Source: an uncultured Bacteroidia bacterium (GTDB lineage Bacteria > Bacteroidota > Bacteroidia > Bacteroidales > Prolixibacteraceae). Taken from it: 63,959 nucleotides of DNA. The stretch is from positions 1 to 63,959 of the forward strand of contig CAIUAN010000036.1 in the NCBI GenBank assembly GCA_903897145.1, given 5' to 3'. The position numbers were made by a program, and so were the translations under genes. How positions within the stretch are numbered: position 1 is the first letter of the stretch; every line of letters starts with the position of its first letter. The notes below the pieces were generated by a model that did not search any database, was not told where the DNA came from, and saw only the letters and a list, made by a program, of their open reading frames with translations. Positions 3,594 to 56,209 of this stretch are shown piece by piece.

Positions 3594-5090
3594 TTAATAC
3601 AACTTAGAATGGCATTCGGAACATAATTTGGTTTTCCATTTATCCCCAATATCTACTGGATGTTTGAATTCAAGGGGCTTGAAAGAGCTGGCGATCTCCA
3701 TGGTGGAGTCGGCTCCTTGAGCGACAATATTATGACATAAATTACAATCGCGTGAGATCTTTTTCCCTCCAGTAGAGATATGCAAATCGTTATGACAGCG
3801 GTCGCAACCGACCGATTCAAGGTGACCTAAATGATTGGGATGAGCCGACCATTTAGCACCCATCTCTGGGAAGATATTCTGACTGAACCCCTCCTTGATA
3901 CCAGCAATGGTCTGATCGATCTCATTCTTTTTACTTGCTACAAGCTTCGGATACATCGAAGTGTAATATTCCTTCACCTGCTTCTCAATGGCGATCATGG
4001 CACTATCAGTTGTCGAGTAATCTTGATTTAGGATGTTCATCGCCACGATCTTCACATCTGGTAAAGAGCGAGGAATTTTGCCAGCTGTAATCAATTCATC
4101 GATAAAGCCTTGTGGATTTTTGTAGTTGTGAGATGGTCTGTTATGACAGTCGATACAATCCATTTTACGCATCTCCATAGAATCCAATTGAGCTGTGGTC
4201 TTTTTCTCTTTTGTATCTTCATAAATGGTGACCTCGCCACTCTTTAGATTCGTATACCTCACCCAGGGTATTTTTTCCCGACTTAAGGTTGTTGATTTAT
4301 ATTCAATTTTTACATCGGGGTTGATATGCCAATGGATTCCTTGTGTAATGCCTTGAGCGCTATGACTCGCGCTGGTTTTCATCTGCAACTGGATATTCCA
4401 GGCAGAGGTGGTCTCATCGGCCAAATAAGAAATCTTATTCTTCTGTTTCCGATCGTAAAATTTCTGAGGCCAATGGCAGTTCTCGCACGTCTCCATGGCT
4501 GGACGTAAATTGCTTATTGGGGTGGTAATAGGATGCGGTATTTTATTCATGATCACCGCATAAACCTGATAAAGACCGGTCATTTTACTTCGAACATACC
4601 ATCCTGCACCTGAGCCAACATGACATTCGACACAGTTTACCCTGGAGTGTGGTGAATTTTGATAGGCGGTGTATTCAGGCTTCATCGTCACGTGACATAG
4701 TTTCCCGCAAAACTCATTCGACTCGGTGATGTGAAAGGCTTGAAAGCTACCTATGGAGGTGAGGATCGCAAAGCAGATCGTCCCAACGAGAAAAATTGCA
4801 GCTGCATTCCGTGTTGACTTTTTGTTAAAATCCCAAAGTGGATAAACGGCTGTTTCTGCAGACTGAAGCTCGCTTAGTTTCTTCGCACGAGACATCCCAA
4901 TCGGTATCAAGACCAACCCGAAAAACAATAAGGCTGGTAAGACCATGTAGATTAAGATTCCTAGGTATGAGTTGCCAGGAAAAATAAATGTGGAGATTAG
5001 AAACAGTAATACGATTAGCAGTAAACTAGAGACGGCAATGCTTGCGCCTGCTATCGTAATTAGGTTTTTTGTTGACTTTGGAAGATGCAT
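3594..5090 (-). CDS. NapC/NirT-type multiheme quinol dehydrogenase, 7 heme motifs
   Basis: 498 residues. Three hydrophobic helices (about 10-38, 42-64, 96-118) anchor a periplasmic part with seven heme c attachment motifs: CGKLCH (C128, three-residue spacing), CVECH, CENCH, CIDCH, CDRCH, CNLCH and CSECH. The first motif followed by TMKPEY is the NapC/NrfH-type quinol-proximal site, so the likely role is to oxidise menaquinol and pass electrons to periplasmic cytochromes. It is larger than classic four-heme, single-helix NapC. It is the last gene of the minus-strand redox cluster. The terminal acceptor is not shown by the sequence. Confidence 0.88.
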   Translation of the reverse strand: MHLPKSTKNLITIAGASIAVSSLLLIVLLFLISTFIFPGNSYLGILIYMVLPALLFFGLVLIPIGMSRAKKLSELQSAETAVYPLWDFNKKSTRNAAAIFLVGTICFAILTSIGSFQAFHITESNEFCGKLCHVTMKPEYTAYQNSPHSRVNCVECHVGSGAGWYVRSKMTGLYQVYAVIMNKIPHPITTPISNLRPAMETCENCHWPQKFYDRKQKNKISYLADETTSAWNIQLQMKTSASHSAQGITQGIHWHINPDVKIEYKSTTLSREKIPWVRYTNLKSGEVTIYEDTKEKKTTAQLDSMEMRKMDCIDCHNRPSHNYKNPQGFIDELITAGKIPRSLPDVKIVAMNILNQDYSTTDSAMIAIEKQVKEYYTSMYPKLVASKKNEIDQTIAGIKEGFSQNIFPEMGAKWSAHPNHLGHLESVGCDRCHNDLHISTGGKKISRDCNLCHNIVAQGADSTMEIASSFKPLEFKHPVDIGDKWKTKLCSECHSKLY

Positions 5091-5231
5091 GGCAATTGAA
5101 ATTTGTATTGGGTGAAGATGCGTAGCCTTGAGAGCATTACCCTAACAAGAAATTTGAAGTGGAGCAAACTAGCTCATGCGACAAGGGGAAAAATAAAGTG
5201 CTGAGATTTTTCAACCTCAGCACTTCAGTAT

Positions 5232-5651
5232 TTACTTAAGTGTTCTAATGAAGTTGACCAACGCCCATCTGTCTTCTTCTTCGGCAATCTTTTTATCAAA
5301 TGCAGGCATCTCATCGCGGCCTATAACGAATTGATAGTAAATTACACCATCAGCTTGACCTTGGAATTTTGCATCCTTAAAAGAAATGATTTTGGTTTTT
5401 AAAGTCGATGATTTTGGTCCGTCAGCTAATCCTGTGCCACCATGACATGATTTGCAATGTTTAGTATACAGATTTTTACCAGCAGAAACAGATGCTGCAT
5501 CCCCTTTAACGGCGTTTTTCATCGCTTTGTATTTTGCCGGAACATTCCATGCACCACCCTCTTTCTGATCTTGAGCTGAAGCAAAAGATGAAAATGCAAA
5601 AAGACACACCATTAAACTGAACCCTTTTAAGATCATACTAAGATTTTTCAT
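5232..5651 (-). CDS. Periplasmic monoheme class I cytochrome c (copy 1)
   Basis: 139 residues: signal peptide (FSLMVCLFAFSSFASA), one heme site CKSCHGG, and a distal Met candidate in GRDEMPAFDKK. It is an electron shuttle of the cytochrome c6/c555 type. The frame opens further upstream (to 5687), but the ATG at 5651 begins directly before the signal peptide and gives exactly the length of the paralog at 7574-7993. The two paralogs share most of the mature sequence, including the WxVPAKYKAMK and DAKFQGQ segments. Confidence 0.92.
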   Translation of the reverse strand: MKNLSMILKGFSLMVCLFAFSSFASAQDQKEGGAWNVPAKYKAMKNAVKGDAASVSAGKNLYTKHCKSCHGGTGLADGPKSSTLKTKIISFKDAKFQGQADGVIYYQFVIGRDEMPAFDKKIAEEEDRWALVNFIRTLK

Positions 5652-5947
5652 TTGAGTTGTTTTAAAGATTAAACATTTGTCATTCAAATAATTAAATTCT
5701 TGATCAAATACCTCTTGAAATTCGACTTAAATTCGGCAGAAACAACCAATTCATTACCTCTGGATGACTACTCAAAAGTAGAAAGGATATCCTTTTTCAA
5801 AGACTAAAGCCGGTTGATATAACGACGCAGTTCAATTGATATAAAGCAGGATTTATATTGATTTTTATTGGTTCTAAATAGGAGATGATCGCTCTTGTTT
5901 TTGATTTTAGGAAATCAGGGTGACTTTTACTTTTGAATTGAACGGGC

Positions 5948-6580
5948 TCAGTGAGCATCTGTTTTGTGGTAGCCGTTGAGAATGCTTTTGAAGTTCTCTA
6001 GCGGGTGCTGACCAATGGAGGCAACATATAAATGAATAAGTAAGAATGTTGTGACTAAAAAGCCCAGACTAGCATGTAGTATGGCTGTCAGAAATATCCC
6101 ACTTAGGTGATATACATTTTCAATAATCAGTTCAGGGAGCAGCAAGCCTATTCCGGTTATGATAAGTCCAGGCATAAAAAGATACATGATAATGGAGTAG
6201 ATCAATTTTTGCAATGGATTGAATTTCCTCTTTTCAGATAAGGGGTAGGGTGGACGTTGCTTTTTAAACATCCCAATCAAATAATATTGACTTTGTATCT
6301 TAACCTTCTCAAACATGCCCACTCGCTTTATTTTATAGTGTTTGTGATTCGTTGTTCTTAGGTTGCCAATGGTGAAGATGAGATAACTAAGTCCAACCAT
6401 AATGCCAGCTATATTGTGCATGTTGATAGCTAACTGGAAATCCATTAATCGGAACCCCTGGTTCGAATAATACATGGTAATCCCCGTGTAGATCAAAATC
6501 AGAATGCCAATGGCATTTAAACTATGCCAGACGCGAATCCAAATCGGATAGAAATAGATCTTGTTTTCAGACTCTTTCAT
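5948..6580 (-). CDS. Cytochrome b561-type membrane subunit
   Basis: 210 residues with four to five transmembrane helices and His residues placed for heme b: RVWHSLNA (H19), NMHNIAG in helix 2, ILHASLGF and LLIHLYV near the C-terminus. It resembles the Ni-hydrogenase/thiosulfate-reductase cytochrome b family, which exchanges electrons with quinone. Its ATG overlaps the stop of the upstream 7-heme gene (ATGA, 6577-6580), so the two are translationally coupled and probably form one complex. Confidence 0.85.
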   Translation of the reverse strand: MKESENKIYFYPIWIRVWHSLNAIGILILIYTGITMYYSNQGFRLMDFQLAINMHNIAGIMVGLSYLIFTIGNLRTTNHKHYKIKRVGMFEKVKIQSQYYLIGMFKKQRPPYPLSEKRKFNPLQKLIYSIIMYLFMPGLIITGIGLLLPELIIENVYHLSGIFLTAILHASLGFLVTTFLLIHLYVASIGQHPLENFKSILNGYHKTDAH

Positions 6581-7518
6581 ATCAATTTTTTCAGTATTCG
6601 TGCAGTCACATGTGCTCCAATGCCTAGTACAACCAAGGCCAATATCACAAAGCTCGCTCGTTCAAGCCAACTATTTTGATATGCCCCAATCACATACGAT
6701 TTATTCGAGATGATCGTGTTTAGCTTCCCTTTCTGACTCCGTGATTGCAGGTTTTTGTATTTGTATAACGAAGCTTCTAACATCGAATTTTTCGAATGAC
6801 ACTCTTCGCAATTTTTTAAGGCTTTCTCTTTAGGCAGAATATTATGCGAGACCGCTAATGAGTCAACTACTTGGGTGTGGCATTCGATGCAACGGACATT
6901 TTTAAAGTGCAGCTCCTGGTTGGGTAACCACTCATGAATCTGAGCTAAGGCTGGTTTTAATTTGTCGGATAACAACTGAAATTTGTTGTTGTTACTATGG
7001 CACGACATACACATCTCATTGCTTAAAAGGACGATGTCGCTTACAATGGAGCTGTTCCTTGATTTTGCTTGGTAGTAGTGCTGATTGTGGCATTTGGAAC
7101 AGGTGAAACTCTCCCCAATCTTTTTAAAATGGATGCTTTTTTGAAACTCCTCATCAATCTTTTCAAATTTGTAGGAGGCATATTTAACATCCCCACCATG
7201 ACAGTCTAGGCAGGAGTTTAAAGGCTCAAGCTTCAGTTCTGCCTTATGCGGATAGTGATCATATTCTGCCGAATGACAATCGACACACTTAAACTTAGCA
7301 TGGACACCTTTTGCAAAATGATCCTTGTCAAGAATGTATAATGGGTTCATTAAACGCTTATCCTCATGCTTGGTTAGCGTGTTGGTAAACGTGATGGTTT
7401 GATGTGAATGGCATTTAAGACAGCCATTCACGTCTGGGATTTCATTTTTCTCCTCCGCTTGAAGCGTAACACAGTTTAGGGTTAAAGCAAATAGGAACAA
7501 AAGATACGAGATTCGCAT
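6577..7518 (-). CDS. Seven-heme periplasmic cytochrome c with C-terminal anchor
   Basis: 313 residues: signal peptide (1-21), then seven CxxCH motifs (CLKCH at 33, CVDCH, CLDCH, CSKCH, CMSCH, CIECH, CEECH) and a C-terminal membrane helix (about 285-305). This is the layout of a membrane-tethered cytochrome paired with a cytochrome b. It overlaps the cytochrome b start by 4 bp. No active-site lysine or other catalytic heme motif is evident, so electron transfer rather than catalysis is the likely role. Confidence 0.88.
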   Translation of the reverse strand: MRISYLLFLFALTLNCVTLQAEEKNEIPDVNGCLKCHSHQTITFTNTLTKHEDKRLMNPLYILDKDHFAKGVHAKFKCVDCHSAEYDHYPHKAELKLEPLNSCLDCHGGDVKYASYKFEKIDEEFQKSIHFKKIGESFTCSKCHNQHYYQAKSRNSSIVSDIVLLSNEMCMSCHSNNNKFQLLSDKLKPALAQIHEWLPNQELHFKNVRCIECHTQVVDSLAVSHNILPKEKALKNCEECHSKNSMLEASLYKYKNLQSRSQKGKLNTIISNKSYVIGAYQNSWLERASFVILALVVLGIGAHVTARILKKLI

Positions 7519-7573
7519 TTTGTGTCTGTGAAGTAGTAAAGTAGGATATTAGCCAGTCCGACTAATGGAGATA

Positions 7574-7993
7574 TTATTTTAAAGTCCGCACAAAACTGAC
7601 AATGGCCCAGCGTTCTTCTTCGTCTGCAATTTTTTTCTCGAAGTTTGGCATTTCATCGCGACCGACAAACGATTCAAAGTAGATCTCGCCATCTGTCTGA
7701 CCTTGGAATTTAGCATCCTTAAATTTATTCACCTTCGTTTTCATGCTGCTCGATTTTGGACCATCGCCTAGTCCACCACCACCATGGCACGATTTGCAAT
7801 GTTTCGTGTAAAGCATTTTCCCCGTGTTTAAAGTTGTCGCGTCAGCTTTTTGGGTGCTTTTCATGGCTTTGTACTTTGCAGGAACACTCCATGGAGCGCC
7901 AATTTTCTGATCCTGTGGAAGCATCGCTAGAAGTAGAAATGCTACTAGACTTAAAGAAAGAATTGCAATAGAAAACCGTAATGTCCGTTTCAT
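7574..7993 (-). CDS. Periplasmic monoheme class I cytochrome c (copy 2)
   Basis: 139 residues: N-terminal hydrophobic signal or anchor (about 7-25), heme site CKSCHGG and Met candidate GRDEMPNFEKK. It is a clear paralog of the protein at 5232-5651, with aligned segments such as VPAKYKAMK, CKSCHGG, DGPKSS, KDAKFQGQ and GRDEMP. The duplicates flank the 7-heme/cytochrome b pair. No cleavage motif as clear as in copy 1 is visible, so this copy may stay membrane-tethered. Confidence 0.9.
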   Translation of the reverse strand: MKRTLRFSIAILSLSLVAFLLLAMLPQDQKIGAPWSVPAKYKAMKSTQKADATTLNTGKMLYTKHCKSCHGGGGLGDGPKSSSMKTKVNKFKDAKFQGQTDGEIYFESFVGRDEMPNFEKKIADEEERWAIVSFVRTLK

Positions 7994-8058
7994 TTTGTTG
8001 TCTTTTTTAAAGTTTAAAAAATCGAAGTCAAAATACTGGAGCAGTCATCTGAATTAAG

Positions 8059-8988
8059 CTAGAATCCCCAGAGTCGCGTAATGACAAAGCCCATGACAAA
8101 CTGCTGTTTGGTTAAGTCATTTTGGTTCCACATGGTGTTGTCCTGTGGCAGAATACCGCTGTAGGTTCCCATGTAAATCTGGAATGAGTGCGCACTGGTT
8201 GCTACTTCATAGCCAAAAGATAGGTTTTGTTTAGGCGGATTGGTAAAGGTCCATTGTTCTGAAATATCTTTTATTTTAAGCGGGAAATCGTAATTAAACA
8301 TCAGAGAACCTTGAGGCGAGACTTTAAAGCGTCCACTGAGATGCAATGCCACGTTATCGTGGTCGTAGACTAAGCCAACCACATTGTAATGGGTGAAGCT
8401 GATGGCAGTCTGAAGGGTTAATTTTTCAGAAAATTTTCGACTCACGATCAGTTCAGAAAAATAACTTAGACGATCAGGCCATTTAAATAGGTTTGCTTGA
8501 CCAAGCTCATGCGCTACCTGGACATTTCCCGATTCAAATTCTTTAATATTCCGACCATCAACGGCCACATTCCCGAAGATTGTAATGGCAACTGGATAGG
8601 TATTCTTCCTTGTTTGTTGCATCAATGTCCACTTAACATCTAAGTCACTGGCCATATTCTTTTTTACAATCCCCGCACCAACTTGAAAATTCTTTGCAAA
8701 TACATAGTTTAAGCCTAAACGAATATTAGCTCCTGGTGCATAGATGCCCCAAAGATCGGAGTGGCCATTTTGAATGGTTCCAAACTTATGCTGAATAATG
8801 GCTTCAAGAGTATGTAATGGCTGGATAACGGTGGTCTGAGCATCAATTAAATAGCCACTTTCAAAGGGCGATTTAACGGGTTTGTCTTTTTCGACAACCA
8901 CCGCAGTGGTATCACTCGTTCCGTCCTGTGCATAGGTAAATGGTGCAATCAGGAAGAATAGGATTATAAATAGTATATTTTTTTTCAT
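8059..8988 (-). CDS. DUF5777 family outer-membrane beta-barrel protein
   Basis: 309 residues with a signal peptide ending APFTYAQ. Alternating amphipathic strands rich in aromatic residues (for example NIRLGLNYVF, QVGAGIVKKN, GSLMFNYDF) and a terminal aromatic (RLWGF) fit an outer-membrane barrel. The N-terminal QTTVIQPLHTLEAIIQHKFG stretch resembles DUF5777 proteins of Bacteroidota. Lying between the monoheme cytochrome and two lipoprotein cytochromes, it is a candidate barrel for an electron conduit, but that role is inference. Confidence 0.8.
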   Translation of the reverse strand: MKKNILFIILFFLIAPFTYAQDGTSDTTAVVVEKDKPVKSPFESGYLIDAQTTVIQPLHTLEAIIQHKFGTIQNGHSDLWGIYAPGANIRLGLNYVFAKNFQVGAGIVKKNMASDLDVKWTLMQQTRKNTYPVAITIFGNVAVDGRNIKEFESGNVQVAHELGQANLFKWPDRLSYFSELIVSRKFSEKLTLQTAISFTHYNVVGLVYDHDNVALHLSGRFKVSPQGSLMFNYDFPLKIKDISEQWTFTNPPKQNLSFGYEVATSAHSFQIYMGTYSGILPQDNTMWNQNDLTKQQFVMGFVITRLWGF

Positions 8989-9010
8989 GGTTACTGGTAT
9001 TTAAGTTCCT

Positions 9011-9388
9011 CTAGTTGTTTTTTGCACCCTCCGCGATCCACTGCAAGATCACAGCAGCCTCATTGGTGGTCAGTTTTTTCCAGCTGTGTGATGATGTTGT
9101 TGGATTTGGGTATGTGTAAATCTTACTTTGATTTGGAGTGCTTAGATTTACGAGGTTTGGCACGATGGAGCTATAGGCTTTTGATGGGGTATAGTCGGGT
9201 GACTGCCCACCTGATTTATGACATGATGTGCACTTGTCTCCGCTTGAAAATATAGGCGCTACTTGTGTTGCAAAGCTTACTCCTGCCGCAACTGGCGCTT
9301 CTGGGACTGGTAAGATGAAATCGTATTTGCAACTTGAAACCAGAATCGAGAATAGAACCAAGATTCCAATTATGATGGGATTTTTCAT
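9011..9388 (-). CDS. Monoheme cytochrome c lipoprotein
   Basis: 125 residues. A lipobox (SILVSSC, about residues 16-22) predicts lipid attachment. One heme site CTSCH sits in the VAPIFSSGDKCTSCH context typical of planctomycete-type cytochrome c domains, and the C-terminus ends ILQWIAEGAKNN. The frame opens earlier (9427), but that start overlaps the terminator hairpin, so the ATG at 9388 directly before the signal sequence is preferred. It is 22 bp upstream of the DUF5777 barrel gene, likely co-transcribed. Confidence 0.87.
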   Translation of the reverse strand: MKNPIIIGILVLFSILVSSCKYDFILPVPEAPVAAGVSFATQVAPIFSSGDKCTSCHKSGGQSPDYTPSKAYSSIVPNLVNLSTPNQSKIYTYPNPTTSSHSWKKLTTNEAAVILQWIAEGAKNN

Positions 9389-9412
9389 GGTGATCAACTT
9401 TAAGTTTAAAGT

Positions 9413-9451
9413 AAAAAAAGACTTCAATCTTTTAAAAAGAAGTCTTTTTTT
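9413..9451 (-). terminator. Strong hairpin between two cytochrome lipoprotein genes
   Basis: A perfect 13-bp stem (AAAAAAAGACTTC at 9413-9425 with its complement at 9439-9451) with T-runs in both orientations lies 20 bp after the 6-heme lipoprotein stop and 25 bp before the next start. It probably terminates part of the transcript inside the cluster, reducing expression of the downstream genes unless they have their own promoter. Confidence 0.8.
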
Positions 9452-9470
9452 ATCTTTTAAAGGGATTGAA

Positions 9471-10745
9471 TTAATACGATTTTAAATAGTCAATTGAGTT
9501 TTGCAATACCTGTAAGGCATAGGTTGGATTGTGAACGCCCAACGATAACTCACTGTTGATGTAACCAAAATTATACGCTGCACCCAATTCACCATATTTC
9601 CATTCACGTCCTATTCTAGAAGCATATTTGGTATCGGTTGCAAGTGTGACTGTATTTCCATAAATCACCAATCCAGTTGTTGGACTCACGGTGTTTGCAG
9701 AGGCTAACGCTGTTGCAAAGAGTGTGGTAGATGCTGTGGTTGGGAATAAAACACCATAGAAATCATGACTTGGTAAAGCACTGTATGAGGCTACTCCTGC
9801 AGTACTTACGGTCTTGGTAAATAGTTTCTTAGCCACTAACGCTTCTCCTAACTCCGCTATCTTAGCTGTGATCGCAGCTTGAGTCATGGCAATATGGTCT
9901 GTTGCACTAGTTAAAACATGGCACTCCACGCATTTTGCTTTGTTTACGATCAGCGAGTGACCTCCAGTTTTTGTCCCTGCATCATACGCATTCATATGAC
10001 AATCAATACAGGAATTAGTCGAGTGTTTCCAAGTCTTCGTGTAGGTCTTGCCTGCAAATTCATACGCGTTAATGCCGGCAAATAAGTTCGATTGATTCCC
10101 GTCGTGGACAGAGAAATTTGTGCCTACGGTGAATTTCACTGTGGTGCTCTCTTTTGCATTGTCAAGTGGGAAGAATGGTAATTGACTAAAGGTTTTAACC
10201 GCTCCTAATGCATCGGTATAATTAACCGATGTTACACCACGTATTTGGTGACATGTACTGCAAAGATTACCTATTTTGCCAAAGTCTTGAGTCTTGGTGT
10301 TGTTGTAATAATTAAGGGCTACTGGCGTTGTGGTCCTTAAGATATAACTAGCTGTATCACCAGTGAAGTTAAAGGCACTGTGGGCATGACAAGTGGAGCA
10401 GTTAATTCGAACCGCCGCAGGGATATCATTGTTGACAACAAATTTTCCATTTCCAGTAATCTCTTTAAATCCATCGTCCGTATGGCACCTTGCACAATAT
10501 TTCACATTCCTGCTCGTAGACGTCGTTCCTAAGAAATGTTTAGAGCTCTGATATTCTATTTTTTTCTGATCCATAACTGCAGTGGTGTGGCATTTCAGGC
10601 ACGCTGTATTGGCATCTTTGCCATTCGTGCCATCTTGACCAGGAGCACCAGTTAATCCCATCGGGCCTTCTTTAACACAGGATGTTATTGCAATTAGAAG
10701 AACAAAAACAAAAAATAAGATCGGGTAATGTCTCTTGAGTTTCAT
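9471..10745 (-). CDS. Six-heme cytochrome c lipoprotein with collagen-like linker
   Basis: 424 residues. The lipobox ITSC (Cys23) is followed by six Gly-X-Y triplets (residues 27-44) and then six heme sites: CLKCH, CARCH, CSTCH, CSTCH, CIDCH, CVECH. The C-terminal 150 residues have no heme motif and end in LQNSIDYLKSY. The protein should be lipid-anchored at the outer membrane with the hemes held off by the short linker. It is the first structural gene after the FNR-like regulator and carries a predicted promoter with an operator-like palindrome upstream. Confidence 0.9.
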   Translation of the reverse strand: MKLKRHYPILFFVFVLLIAITSCVKEGPMGLTGAPGQDGTNGKDANTACLKCHTTAVMDQKKIEYQSSKHFLGTTSTSRNVKYCARCHTDDGFKEITGNGKFVVNNDIPAAVRINCSTCHAHSAFNFTGDTASYILRTTTPVALNYYNNTKTQDFGKIGNLCSTCHQIRGVTSVNYTDALGAVKTFSQLPFFPLDNAKESTTVKFTVGTNFSVHDGNQSNLFAGINAYEFAGKTYTKTWKHSTNSCIDCHMNAYDAGTKTGGHSLIVNKAKCVECHVLTSATDHIAMTQAAITAKIAELGEALVAKKLFTKTVSTAGVASYSALPSHDFYGVLFPTTASTTLFATALASANTVSPTTGLVIYGNTVTLATDTKYASRIGREWKYGELGAAYNFGYINSELSLGVHNPTYALQVLQNSIDYLKSY

Positions 10746-10936
10746 AGATTTGTGAGTGAAAGGGTTGTGATTACTAGAAGTTTTTTCCGAAAACCAGTTA
10801 GCTAAAAGCTCGAAGGTTTAAGTTAAATGATTGAATTTGGAAGATTCATGATATTTGCTGTTTCTTGCAGAGAATAACCTCTTGCGAAACCAATCGTTAT
10901 TAAGTACTGATTACGGGAGTAAAAGTACCAAGACAG

Positions 10937-10944
10937 CAAATTTA
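10937..10944 (-). promoter_or_regulatory. -7 promoter element upstream of the 6-heme lipoprotein
   Basis: The minus strand reads TAAATTTG, an exact TAnnTTTG match. No -33 TTTG is seen at the right distance. Instead a palindrome is centred about 41 bp upstream of the predicted start (near 10933), as in activator-dependent promoters. The implied leader is about 188 nt. Confidence 0.5.
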
Positions 10945-10964
10945 TTCGGAAAAAAAACCATTGA

Positions 10965-10984
10965 CATGTTCACTCACGAACATG
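10965..10984. promoter_or_regulatory. Palindromic operator candidate for the FNR-like regulator
   Basis: CATGTTC-N6-GAACATG is a perfect 7-bp inverted repeat centred at 10974.5, about 41.5 bp upstream of the start predicted from TAAATTTG. That is the class II position for CRP/FNR activators. Confidence 0.45.
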
Positions 10985-11013
10985 GATTAATGCTAAGAAA
11001 TATGGGGGAATAG

Positions 11014-11039
11014 ATCAATAAAAGATTGATATATGTCAA
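11014..11039. promoter_or_regulatory. FNR-box-like inverted repeats after the regulator stop
   Basis: TTGAT-ATAT-GTCAA (11026-11039) differs from the enterobacterial FNR box TTGAT-N4-ATCAA at one base. It overlaps ATCAAT-N5-ATTGAT (11014-11030). Both lie between the FNR-like gene and the 6-heme gene. The rest of 10746-11039 shows nothing else. Confidence 0.4.
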
Positions 11040-11771
11040 TTAGCCGTTTCGACTAATCTCCATAAGCTCCTCTTCTTTAAGGATGTGGATGGAATTGCGA
11101 GAGTGATTGATAATTCCAGAATCTTCAAAATCTTTTAAGTTTCGGATAAAACTCTCCTTGGTCATGCCCGACATCTCGGCGAGCTCTTGCTTGGTCAAGA
11201 CAAATTGATACGGATTGGTGTCGTAGACATTGTTCTTTAAATAAAGTAACGTGTCCGCTACTCGACCTGGCATATACTTGTGAATAAGATTGATTAAGGT
11301 CTGGTGCATCTTGATATGCTGACCATTGTATAGCTTCATTAAATCAATCGCAAAAGAACTATTGACATTCAGGTAATTGAAAATCTTTGCAGTCTCAATA
11401 AAACAACACTCTATATCGGTCAGCGCCACAACGGTAAAATGATGCCAATCATCAATGACTGTGCCACCACCGGTGAAGATGTTGTTGTCTTTGATCAAAT
11501 CAAAAATGAGATTTTTCCCCTTCGGACCTTCAGAAACAACCTTGGCTAAACCACTTTTAATGCAGATAACATGTGTTAATGGGGTGTTTTGTTTGGTGAT
11601 CGTCTCTCCAGCACGAAACTTAATCTGGCGCTTGGTATCCATAATCGACCTAAGATCCTCTGGACTAAGACCAACGAAAACATTCGCAGCCCCACAATTA
11701 CCAGCAAGGCAGCAGTTGTATTGGCATCCTTCGCAGGAATCACAGCTATTTAAAGGCGTAGAGGCGTGCAT
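11040..11771 (-). CDS. Crp/Fnr family regulator with N-terminal cysteine cluster
   Basis: 243 residues. The N-terminus holds Cys 10, 13, 16, 20, 21 and 26, suggesting an oxygen- or redox-sensitive iron-sulfur cluster. A cyclic-nucleotide-binding-type beta roll follows (about 40-150), then a dimer helix and a C-terminal winged helix (TKQELAEMSGMTKESFIRNL, with the conserved E and R of the recognition helix). It is transcribed in the same direction as, and directly upstream of, the cytochrome cluster, its likely target. The ligand and DNA site are not proven by sequence. Confidence 0.88.
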   Translation of the reverse strand: MHASTPLNSCDSCEGCQYNCCLAGNCGAANVFVGLSPEDLRSIMDTKRQIKFRAGETITKQNTPLTHVICIKSGLAKVVSEGPKGKNLIFDLIKDNNIFTGGGTVIDDWHHFTVVALTDIECCFIETAKIFNYLNVNSSFAIDLMKLYNGQHIKMHQTLINLIHKYMPGRVADTLLYLKNNVYDTNPYQFVLTKQELAEMSGMTKESFIRNLKDFEDSGIINHSRNSIHILKEEELMEISRNG

Positions 11772-54955: not shown

Positions 54956-56209
54956 ATGATCGAACGCGATATCATTGGGATTTTTGGGAAGATGAATGCG
55001 GGTAAGAGTTCATTGATAAATTTGTTGACACAACAAGAGACCTCCATTGTCGACTCTGCGCCTGGGACAACAGCTGATAGTAAAATAGCTATGATCGAAT
55101 TGCATGGCTTAGGTCCAGTGAAGCTAATAGATACCGCAGGCTTTGACGAACCGAGCGTACTTGGCGATAAAAAACGGAACAAGATTCATGCTGCACTTAA
55201 GGAGTGCGATCTGGCCTTGCTCGTTATTGACCCTTCGACAAGTGATTTCAAAGATGAACTAAACCTTGTTAAACAAGCCCACGAACTAGATAAACAACTA
55301 ATCCTTGTATTTAATTTATTTGCTGATAAAGATAGAGCTCTGATTGACCAAATTCAGCTGTTTTTGAGCTCAATAGGGCCTTGCCCCGCGACCATTCTTC
55401 ATGCGATCAATCATGAGGCTCGTCAGCCAGTCATCGCTTCAATTATTCAAAATTACATCCCTCGAAATCTATCGGTTGATTTATTGCCTTTTGTAGAGAG
55501 CGGAGAGTTTTATATTTTAAATATCCCGATGGATCAAGAAACGCCTCTTGAGCGCTATCTAAAGCCGCAGGCTATGGCAGAAGCGTATATCACTCGGAAA
55601 TGGGCTTATCCCGTTTCGTATCGAATGGATCTTCAAAAGGCGAGGGCTGGTGATCGATTTGAGAAGGCTCGATGGGAAGTTTTCTTGGCTAATTTTACTA
55701 AGAAACCGAAAGCAATCATCACCGATTCTCAAGCGATTGATATTATATCACAGTGGGTGCCCAATGATATTTTGGTAACCACTTTCTCTGTTATGATGAT
55801 TAATTACACGAGTCTGGCACGATTGCATGACTTTGTAAATGGGGTCGAGGCTTTAAAAACGATTGCTTCTGGTGAGGAAGTTTTAATTGCGGAAGCCTGC
55901 AATCACTCTCGAATCAATGAAGATATAGGTACCGTTCAGATTCCTAAACTAATTGAAAAGTTATATCCAGGTGTTGTTGTCAAGCATGTTTTTGGTCGTG
56001 AGATGTTTGATATCATTGATTTTGCTCGTGTTAAGCTTGTAATTCATTGTGGAGGATGCATGATCTCGAATCAGCGCATGGCTGCTAGGCTGCGAGATCT
56101 AGATCGTCTTGGTATTCCAATTACGAACTATGGAATCTTTTTGGCACTGATGCAGGGTGAAGAGGTGCTGCATCGAGTTGTAGCACCATGGATTGATCCA
56201 AATGGATAA
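54956..56209 (+). CDS. hydF: [FeFe]-hydrogenase maturation GTPase HydF
   Basis: 417 residues. The N-terminal GTPase domain has GKMNAGKSSLI (G1), a DTAGFDE (G3) and LVFN-type region. The C-terminal part has the iron-sulfur motif EACNHSRINEDIG...IHCGGCMIS, that is CxH and HCxxC. HydF carries and inserts the di-iron subcluster of the H-cluster. HydE, HydG and the hydrogenase itself are not in the window, so anaerobic hydrogen metabolism is implied elsewhere in the genome. Confidence 0.96.
   Translation: MIERDIIGIFGKMNAGKSSLINLLTQQETSIVDSAPGTTADSKIAMIELHGLGPVKLIDTAGFDEPSVLGDKKRNKIHAALKECDLALLVIDPSTSDFKDELNLVKQAHELDKQLILVFNLFADKDRALIDQIQLFLSSIGPCPATILHAINHEARQPVIASIIQNYIPRNLSVDLLPFVESGEFYILNIPMDQETPLERYLKPQAMAEAYITRKWAYPVSYRMDLQKARAGDRFEKARWEVFLANFTKKPKAIITDSQAIDIISQWVPNDILVTTFSVMMINYTSLARLHDFVNGVEALKTIASGEEVLIAEACNHSRINEDIGTVQIPKLIEKLYPGVVVKHVFGREMFDIIDFARVKLVIHCGGCMISNQRMAARLRDLDRLGIPITNYGIFLALMQGEEVLHRVVAPWIDPNG

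Follow-up and report, generated by a model that had tools for sequence, protein, structure and literature searches.

The closest described counterparts of the system analysed here are the porin–cytochrome complexes (MtrCAB, OmbB/OmcB, ExtABCD), the reductase OcwA and the iron oxidase Cyc2. The system itself is a nine-gene cluster at positions 3594–11771 of the minus strand of a 63,959-nucleotide contig (CAIUAN010000036.1, assembly GCA_903897145.1) from an uncultured bacterium of the Prolixibacteraceae (Bacteroidota); this whole stretch is referred to below as the window. As in the porin–cytochrome complexes, quinol dehydrogenases, periplasmic carriers, a barrel and outer-membrane lipoprotein cytochromes are encoded together. 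The cluster differs from them in its barrel, a DUF5777 protein with 12 predicted strands where theirs is large (26 strands in MtrB; PMC8406198), in the absence of an MtrA-like periplasmic multihaem plug from the window, and in its terminal cytochrome, which is nearest to a superfamily other than that of MtrC. OcwA of Thermincola is reported as a demonstrated cell-surface reductase which also slowly reduces nitrite and hydroxylamine (PMC6703420), and the model described for Cyc2 has a 16-stranded barrel with the single haem as a plug at its periplasmic opening (PMC8406198).

Reduction of Fe(III) and Mn(IV) oxides, with a few per cent of the electrons, is reported as measured in isolates of the Marinifilaceae; the genes responsible are described there as still to be found, a cytochrome annotated as NrfHA being one guess (PMC5760507). 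Several pathways by which a Prolixibacteraceae genome might support extracellular electron transfer have already been reported (PMC10504345). The search for conduits in bioanode communities is described as using profiles of the MtrB, OmbB, ExtB/E and ExtI porins (PMC7399161); a DUF5777 system would probably escape such searches. A search of open-access papers gave no match to DUF5777, and among the titles and starts of abstracts listed by further searches none describes this cluster.

The nine-gene cluster is a real, widely conserved electron-transfer operon which probably ends at the outer membrane. A first-pass annotation made from the letters alone had proposed nine minus-strand genes with 23 haem c sites, and both numbers are confirmed by the list of open reading frames (ORFs) and by motif counts for each gene (22 CXXCH and one CXXXCH). 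In the whole window the CXXCH pattern is found 27 times at the DNA level, against 3.3 expected from shuffling; 22 of these matches are minus-strand sites within the cluster genes, and the CXXXCH site supplies the 23rd haem. The gene nearest the start of the cluster encodes a CRP/FNR-type regulator (11040–11771; 243 amino acids, cysteine-rich N-terminus, PF00027 and PF13545, no haem motif). It is followed by the hexahaem lipoprotein HexLP (9471–10745; 424 amino acids, six CXXCH), the monohaem lipoprotein monoLP (9011–9427; one CXXCH, a lipobox of the C-K-Y-D-F type, no Pfam match above cut-off), the DUF5777 outer-membrane barrel (8059–8988; 309 amino acids, no haem motif) and the small monohaem cytochrome c mono2 (7574–7993; 139 amino acids, PF13442/PF00034). 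Next are the heptahaem cytochrome MHC7 (6577–7518; seven CXXCH, Cytochrome_C7 at an expect value (E) of 5e-16, C-terminal membrane helix at 291–309 by hydropathy), a b561/PhsC-like cytochrome b without haem c motif (5948–6580; PF01292 at 8.5e-22, PRK15006 at 9.7e-43 but below its own cut-off), a second small monohaem cytochrome c, mono1 (5232–5687; PF13442/PF00034), and the NapC/NrfH-like heptahaem quinol dehydrogenase NapC7 (3594–5090; 498 amino acids, PF03264 at 1.8e-11, TIGR03153 at 1.2e-13 but below its own cut-off). Internal ATGs are the probable starts of mono1 (5651) and monoLP (9388). NapC7 carries six CXXCH and one CXXXCH, and hydropathy gives it three membrane helices, two of them preceding the NapC domain. 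The NapC/NirT domain, and the cytochrome b together with MHC7, form the inner-membrane quinol-dehydrogenase modules of the cluster by their Pfam matches, with quinol oxidation predicted. MHC7 and NapC7 have only weak solved relatives. The genes from HexLP to cytochrome b are closely packed (gaps of 43, 22, 65 and 55 bp, then an overlap of 4 bp between MHC7 and cytochrome b). Gaps of 260 and 141 bp set off mono1 and NapC7, which may therefore have a separate promoter.

The conservation of this gene set was followed in 79 named loci, obtained by an alignment search with DUF5777 from the best 80 of 233 matches; loci are cited by number (L) where needed. They are mutually related and some are near-identical (L104 and L105), so that the counts do not represent independent cases. 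The cluster is conserved in Prolixibacteraceae, Marinifilaceae and their kin; named hosts are Draconibacterium, Mariniphaga, Maribellus, Tangfeifania, Sunxiuqinia and Ancylomarina, and the nearest named loci are in genomes from metagenomes, with Lac Pavin and Loclat suggested by their names. Directly upstream of DUF5777, monoLP is present in all 73 loci with enough sequence, HexLP is upstream in 68 of 69 (the sole miss being the rearranged L122), and MHC7 is downstream in 67 of 70, the misses being L057, L122 and L096, in which the script probably used the first of two DUF5777 copies. A set of 45 long loci, with flanks of 3 kb or more before and 7 kb or more after, was scored for genes at any position in the locus. 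All 45 contain HexLP, monoLP, MHC7 and cytochrome b; the regulator is found in 35, NapC7 in 34, a mono cytochrome in 29, a c554-like tetrahaem cytochrome in 16 and a 19-haem cytochrome fused to cytochrome b in 15. Haem numbers are fixed in full-length members: seven in MHC7 (72/72), six plus one in NapC7 (45/45) and one in monoLP (78/78). A close HexLP (E < 1e-90) is present in 20 of 56 genomes of the family containing Ancylomarina; nine of ten loci fetched from them have DUF5777, MHC7 and cytochrome b nearby, and the tenth lies at a contig end. The HexLP–monoLP–DUF5777 module is arranged in tandem in L048 and L129, and contig ends indicate the same in L061 and L069. The chain from quinol to the outer membrane that had first been proposed thus stands as a co-conserved gene set, in which lipoprotein cytochromes and a barrel are accompanied by two quinol-dehydrogenase-like modules. 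In some loci the 19-haem cytochrome with its C-terminal cytochrome b domain is an alternative inner-membrane module (for example L036 10538–13354 and L037 3731–6532).

A palindromic TTGA-N6-TCAA site (TTGACATATATCAA, minus strand, 11026–11039) lies 280 bp before the HexLP ORF. This consensus, which we take to be the FNR box, is found within the 320 bp that precede HexLP in 61 of 73 loci, the window included; dinucleotide-shuffled upstream regions gave a mean of 1.53 and a maximum of 6 of 73, uncorrected for kinship. The stricter form TTGAT-N4-ATCAA is present in 32 of the 73 regions, the window carrying the TTGA-N6-TCAA form only, of which it holds two sites over its whole length. The site precedes each of the eight other structural genes tested in zero to two cases, and the regulator gene in 6 of 58. 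The regulator has a CRP fold according to Pfam; C123 is kept in 59/59 homologues and C21 in 56/59, and its N-terminal and C122/C123 cysteines, largely conserved, are candidate iron–sulphur ligands. The operon is probably oxygen-controlled and anaerobically induced, as judged from these motifs.

A candidate terminal electron-transfer protein is HexLP, whose N-terminus has a lipobox with C-V-K-E-G-P followed by a collagen-like repeat. Six haems are found in 71 of 72 homologues, the window included (54 with six CXXCH, 17 with five CXXCH and one CX4CH), and five in the remaining one. Histidines outside the motifs are conserved at 69, 213, 262 and 404 (72/72), 240 (71) and 121 (67), which provides one candidate second histidine for each haem. 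With the HexLP profile the best solved relative is OcwA (6i5b, E 2.6e-18), followed by NrfA and 6qvm, and 6v0a is matched at 1.1e-15. The predicted model has a mean predicted local distance difference test (pLDDT) score of 75.8, and its first Foldseek match is again 6i5b (E 1.3e-3, template modelling (TM) score 0.41), then NrfA structures. By sequence, solved relatives were found with the profile only; a single HexLP sequence (L109) as query gave none at 1e-3. Features shared with the OcwA/NrfA/MccA/HAO superfamily are the profile and fold match, the C-terminal helices and the conserved histidine H404 in an HNP motif, which we infer to be a distal ligand. HexLP differs from OcwA and this superfamily in having six haems, no CXXCK, a lipoprotein anchor and a Gram-negative host.

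Escherichia coli NrfA aligns to haems 3–6 of HexLP, the alignment beginning past the Lys-ligated haem of NrfA. The catalytic histidine of NrfA, at the residue number which we take to be correct, falls on a HexLP column with glycine in 48 of 72 sequences, and CXXCK is found in none of the 72. HexLP as an NrfA nitrite reductase is rejected because the catalytic lysine (CXXCK) and the distal histidine are absent. HexLP is a member of the NrfA/OcwA superfamily by profile and predicted fold but not an NrfA-type enzyme, since the catalytic signature is missing. At the pair 213–214 the first position is histidine in 72/72 and the second is histidine in 39, tyrosine in 28 and aspartate in 5, the window among the last. 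A search of the host genome for PF02335 gave no match, which is of limited worth as HexLP itself matches PF02335 weakly.

The barrel matches PF19089 (DUF5777) with 211.5 bits against a cut-off of 23.1 (E 1.5e-62). Its model has 12 long strands (pLDDT 83.7, predicted TM score 0.79), and its fold neighbours include OmpG, FapF, COG4313 and NanC; by sequence it has no solved relative below E 0.5. From general barrel geometry we estimate a backbone diameter of ~23 Å for 12 strands and ~49 Å for 26, so that a multihaem plug would not fit. The first-pass annotation had likened the cluster to the Mtr and Pcc conduits and had made its idea depend on a pore wide enough for a cytochrome; with the strand count of the model and no MtrA-like partner in the window this likeness is not supported, and an MtrA-in-barrel conduit is rejected on the strand count. 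MHC7 alone could be the periplasmic multihaem partner, yet it has a C-terminal membrane helix and its gene overlaps that of cytochrome b. Haem binding inside the barrel by invariant histidines is also rejected, on the sequence pattern only: H66, H199 and H266 alternate with hydrophobic residues.

DUF5777 is present in 115 of 296 genomes sampled across the phylum. We examined 64 loci, namely the 30 best-scoring (with flanks of only ~1.5 kb) and 34 picked lower in the list. None of the 64 has, within 1.5 kb and with both strands counted, an ORF with at least three haem motifs, whereas an ORF of 80–600 amino acids with one or two motifs is found within that distance on the same strand in 47 and on either strand in 51. 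A YceI gene is present in 48. The expected co-conservation of DUF5777 with the cytochromes is therefore seen in the cluster loci but, for multihaem cytochromes, not across the phylum; conversely, the suspicion that DUF5777 occurs mostly away from cytochromes is right for multihaem and wrong for monohaem cytochromes. This DUF5777–YceI–monohaem lipoprotein module of other Bacteroidota shares the barrel family and an adjacent c-type lipoprotein with the cluster but has YceI in place of a nearby multihaem chain. One distant genome contains a natural fusion of a haem c domain and DUF5777 (L189 5572–6837; DUF5777 at 160–407, E 1.4e-44); of 228 DUF5777 ORFs, with overlapping loci counted twice, no other carries a haem motif. 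The fused haem domain is 43% identical (2e-27) to a separate neighbouring lipoprotein; the monoLP profile does not match the fused domain directly, but it does match that lipoprotein, through which the link runs. The fusion thus supports a haem–barrel unit. The pairing of one haem c domain with a small barrel, with L189 a true DUF5777 fusion, recalls Cyc2 as published, although in the window the genes are separate and the barrel has 12 strands, not 16. The host genome has a second DUF5777 of the YceI type, split over two ORFs (L004 8895–9404 and 9502–9789, G000:C34), which a frameshift, an error or decay may explain. In L176, L192, L196 and L198 a protein of the ethylbenzene-dehydrogenase type (EB_dh) with one haem motif lies upstream of monoLP, and L198 also contains a HexLP relative.

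Relatives of HexLP are found in 46 of the 296 genomes at 1e-10, many within much longer proteins. Ten loci of other classes (L266–L275, nine genomes) were picked and fetched. In five of them HexLP accompanies a putative barrel of 423–458 amino acids, inferred as such and without Pfam match in the two scanned, and cytochromes with 12–14 and 7–9 haems; these five also hold relatives of Cyt4 (5), Cyt19b (4) or NapC7 (3). Three have HexLP with a monohaem putative porin of 408–431 amino acids, and two have neither partner. Among near relatives, identity between the window and L055 is 96% for MHC7 and 98% for the regulator, against 40% for HexLP, while L054 and L055 share a HexLP at 96%; L054 and L056 have 36% in HexLP and 77% in MHC7, and L105 and L107 have 48% and 94%. 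Such divergent HexLP alleles may reflect what is expected of an exposed protein and are not proof of it.

The best reading of the cluster, to which we give a probability of about 0.5, is an anaerobically induced chain from quinol to the outer membrane for extracellular or bulky acceptors. The operon would be switched on without oxygen, cytochrome b with MHC7, and NapC7, would oxidise quinol in the inner membrane, and the small monohaem cytochromes would ferry electrons across the periplasm. MonoLP, docked on the 12-stranded DUF5777 barrel, would hand them to HexLP at or on the outer membrane, and HexLP would pass them to Fe(III)/Mn(IV), humics or another extracellular or bulky acceptor; to a bacterium living mainly by fermentation the chain would offer an electron sink. 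Extracellular transfer is preferred to any other single reading because of the kinship with OcwA, the exchange of modules around HexLP and the turnover of its alleles. It is also favoured by the co-conserved cluster, the tandem HexLP–monoLP–DUF5777 modules, the FNR-type site and the presence of metal-oxide reducers in a family which carries the cluster. As first noted, no classical terminal reductase is encoded in the cluster, and in the host genome alone (2.8 Mb, 97% complete, the window being one contig of it) neither a molybdopterin oxidoreductase (0/1 genome; 11/14 controls detected) nor cytochrome bd (10/14 controls detected) was found. Several observations weigh on the other side. The DUF5777 barrel as predicted has no room for a multihaem plug, its lumen shows no evident haem site, with the invariant histidines on a hydrophobic face, and the family is widespread in places where no quinol chain accompanies it. 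HexLP has a weak fold match, with no Foldseek match under E 1e-3; its C-X-K-E-G is one acidic residue short of C-X-K-(D/E)2, the published signal for surface export, in which a single such residue is described as insufficient; and in five of seven pairs of relatives compared its divergence is similar to, or modestly above, that of its neighbours. The genome also has three full-length matches and one partial match to the COX1 family and so does not depend on this chain alone.

The main rival, which we consider rather unlikely, is a respiratory reductase that acts on a soluble acceptor in the periplasm, with DUF5777 as substrate porin and the lipoprotein cytochromes on the inner leaflet, so that no electron crosses the outer membrane. 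It stays alive because of the narrow, porin-like barrel, with OmpG, FapF, COG4313 and NanC among its fold neighbours, and the incomplete export signal of HexLP, and membership of the NrfA superfamily would suit it; the candidate second histidine of each of the six haems, the missing catalytic residues of NrfA, the divergent alleles and the company of multihaem cytochromes and putative larger barrels kept by HexLP in other classes speak against it. A nitrite/hydroxylamine or NO-type reductase, or a detoxification system, of the NrfHA kind is improbable. Cytochrom_C552 and NrfH-like matches, the slow activity of OcwA on the same substrates and the 213–214 pair, which recalls the distal HH pairs of OcwA although it was not aligned to them, are in its favour, set against the absence of CXXCK, the mostly glycine column at the NrfA catalytic histidine, the lipoprotein nature and extra N-terminal haems of HexLP, and the report that Labilibaculum reduced metals and not nitrite (PMC5760507).

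Very unlikely, in our view, is an inward chain bringing electrons from Fe(II), Fe(0) or partner organisms to the quinone pool: the monohaem unit with a small barrel resembles the layout reported for the iron oxidase Cyc2 (PMC8406198), but FNR-type control and the polysaccharide-degradation genes beside the cluster, an alpha-L-fucosidase among them, suggest that the chain serves a heterotroph as an electron sink. We place just as little weight on a conserved redox-linked maintenance of the outer membrane, for example by cofactor or thiol chemistry and not respiration; the wide DUF5777–YceI–monohaem form, and the lack of respiratory partners near most sampled DUF5777 loci, would agree with it, whereas the present cluster comes with two quinol-dehydrogenase-like modules and an FNR-type site.

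Within the extracellular reading, we tentatively propose a new kind of outer-membrane electron gate, in which DUF5777 with docked monoLP would replace the multihaem wire within a barrel and feed a surface cytochrome derived from the OcwA/NrfA superfamily. If true, Bacteroidota would have a metal-respiration route of their own under FNR control. The cluster offers a specific set of candidate genes by which such bacteria might carry out the reduction of iron or manganese minerals; it narrows a question of physiology to a few genes, and it raises another, namely by what means electrons might get past a barrel with too little room for a haem wire.

Proteins related to HexLP with nine haem motifs and 659–915 amino acids are found in other classes of the phylum sample (L248–L255). 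The monohaem proteins of 408–431 amino acids beside HexLP, which end in F-Y (L266 8008–9234, L267 8065–9360, L270 11614–12873 and 15309–16556), have no Pfam match in the three scanned; a Cyc2-like layout in an unnamed haem-porin family is possible. DUF5777 is rejected as their homologue for lack of profile similarity (hhalign probability 3%). Elsewhere in the window, a HydF-like GTPase (54956–56209) scores 296 bits, below the cut-off of 325.55; it suggests [FeFe] hydrogenase maturation nearby and would fit a hydrogen-evolving fermentation.

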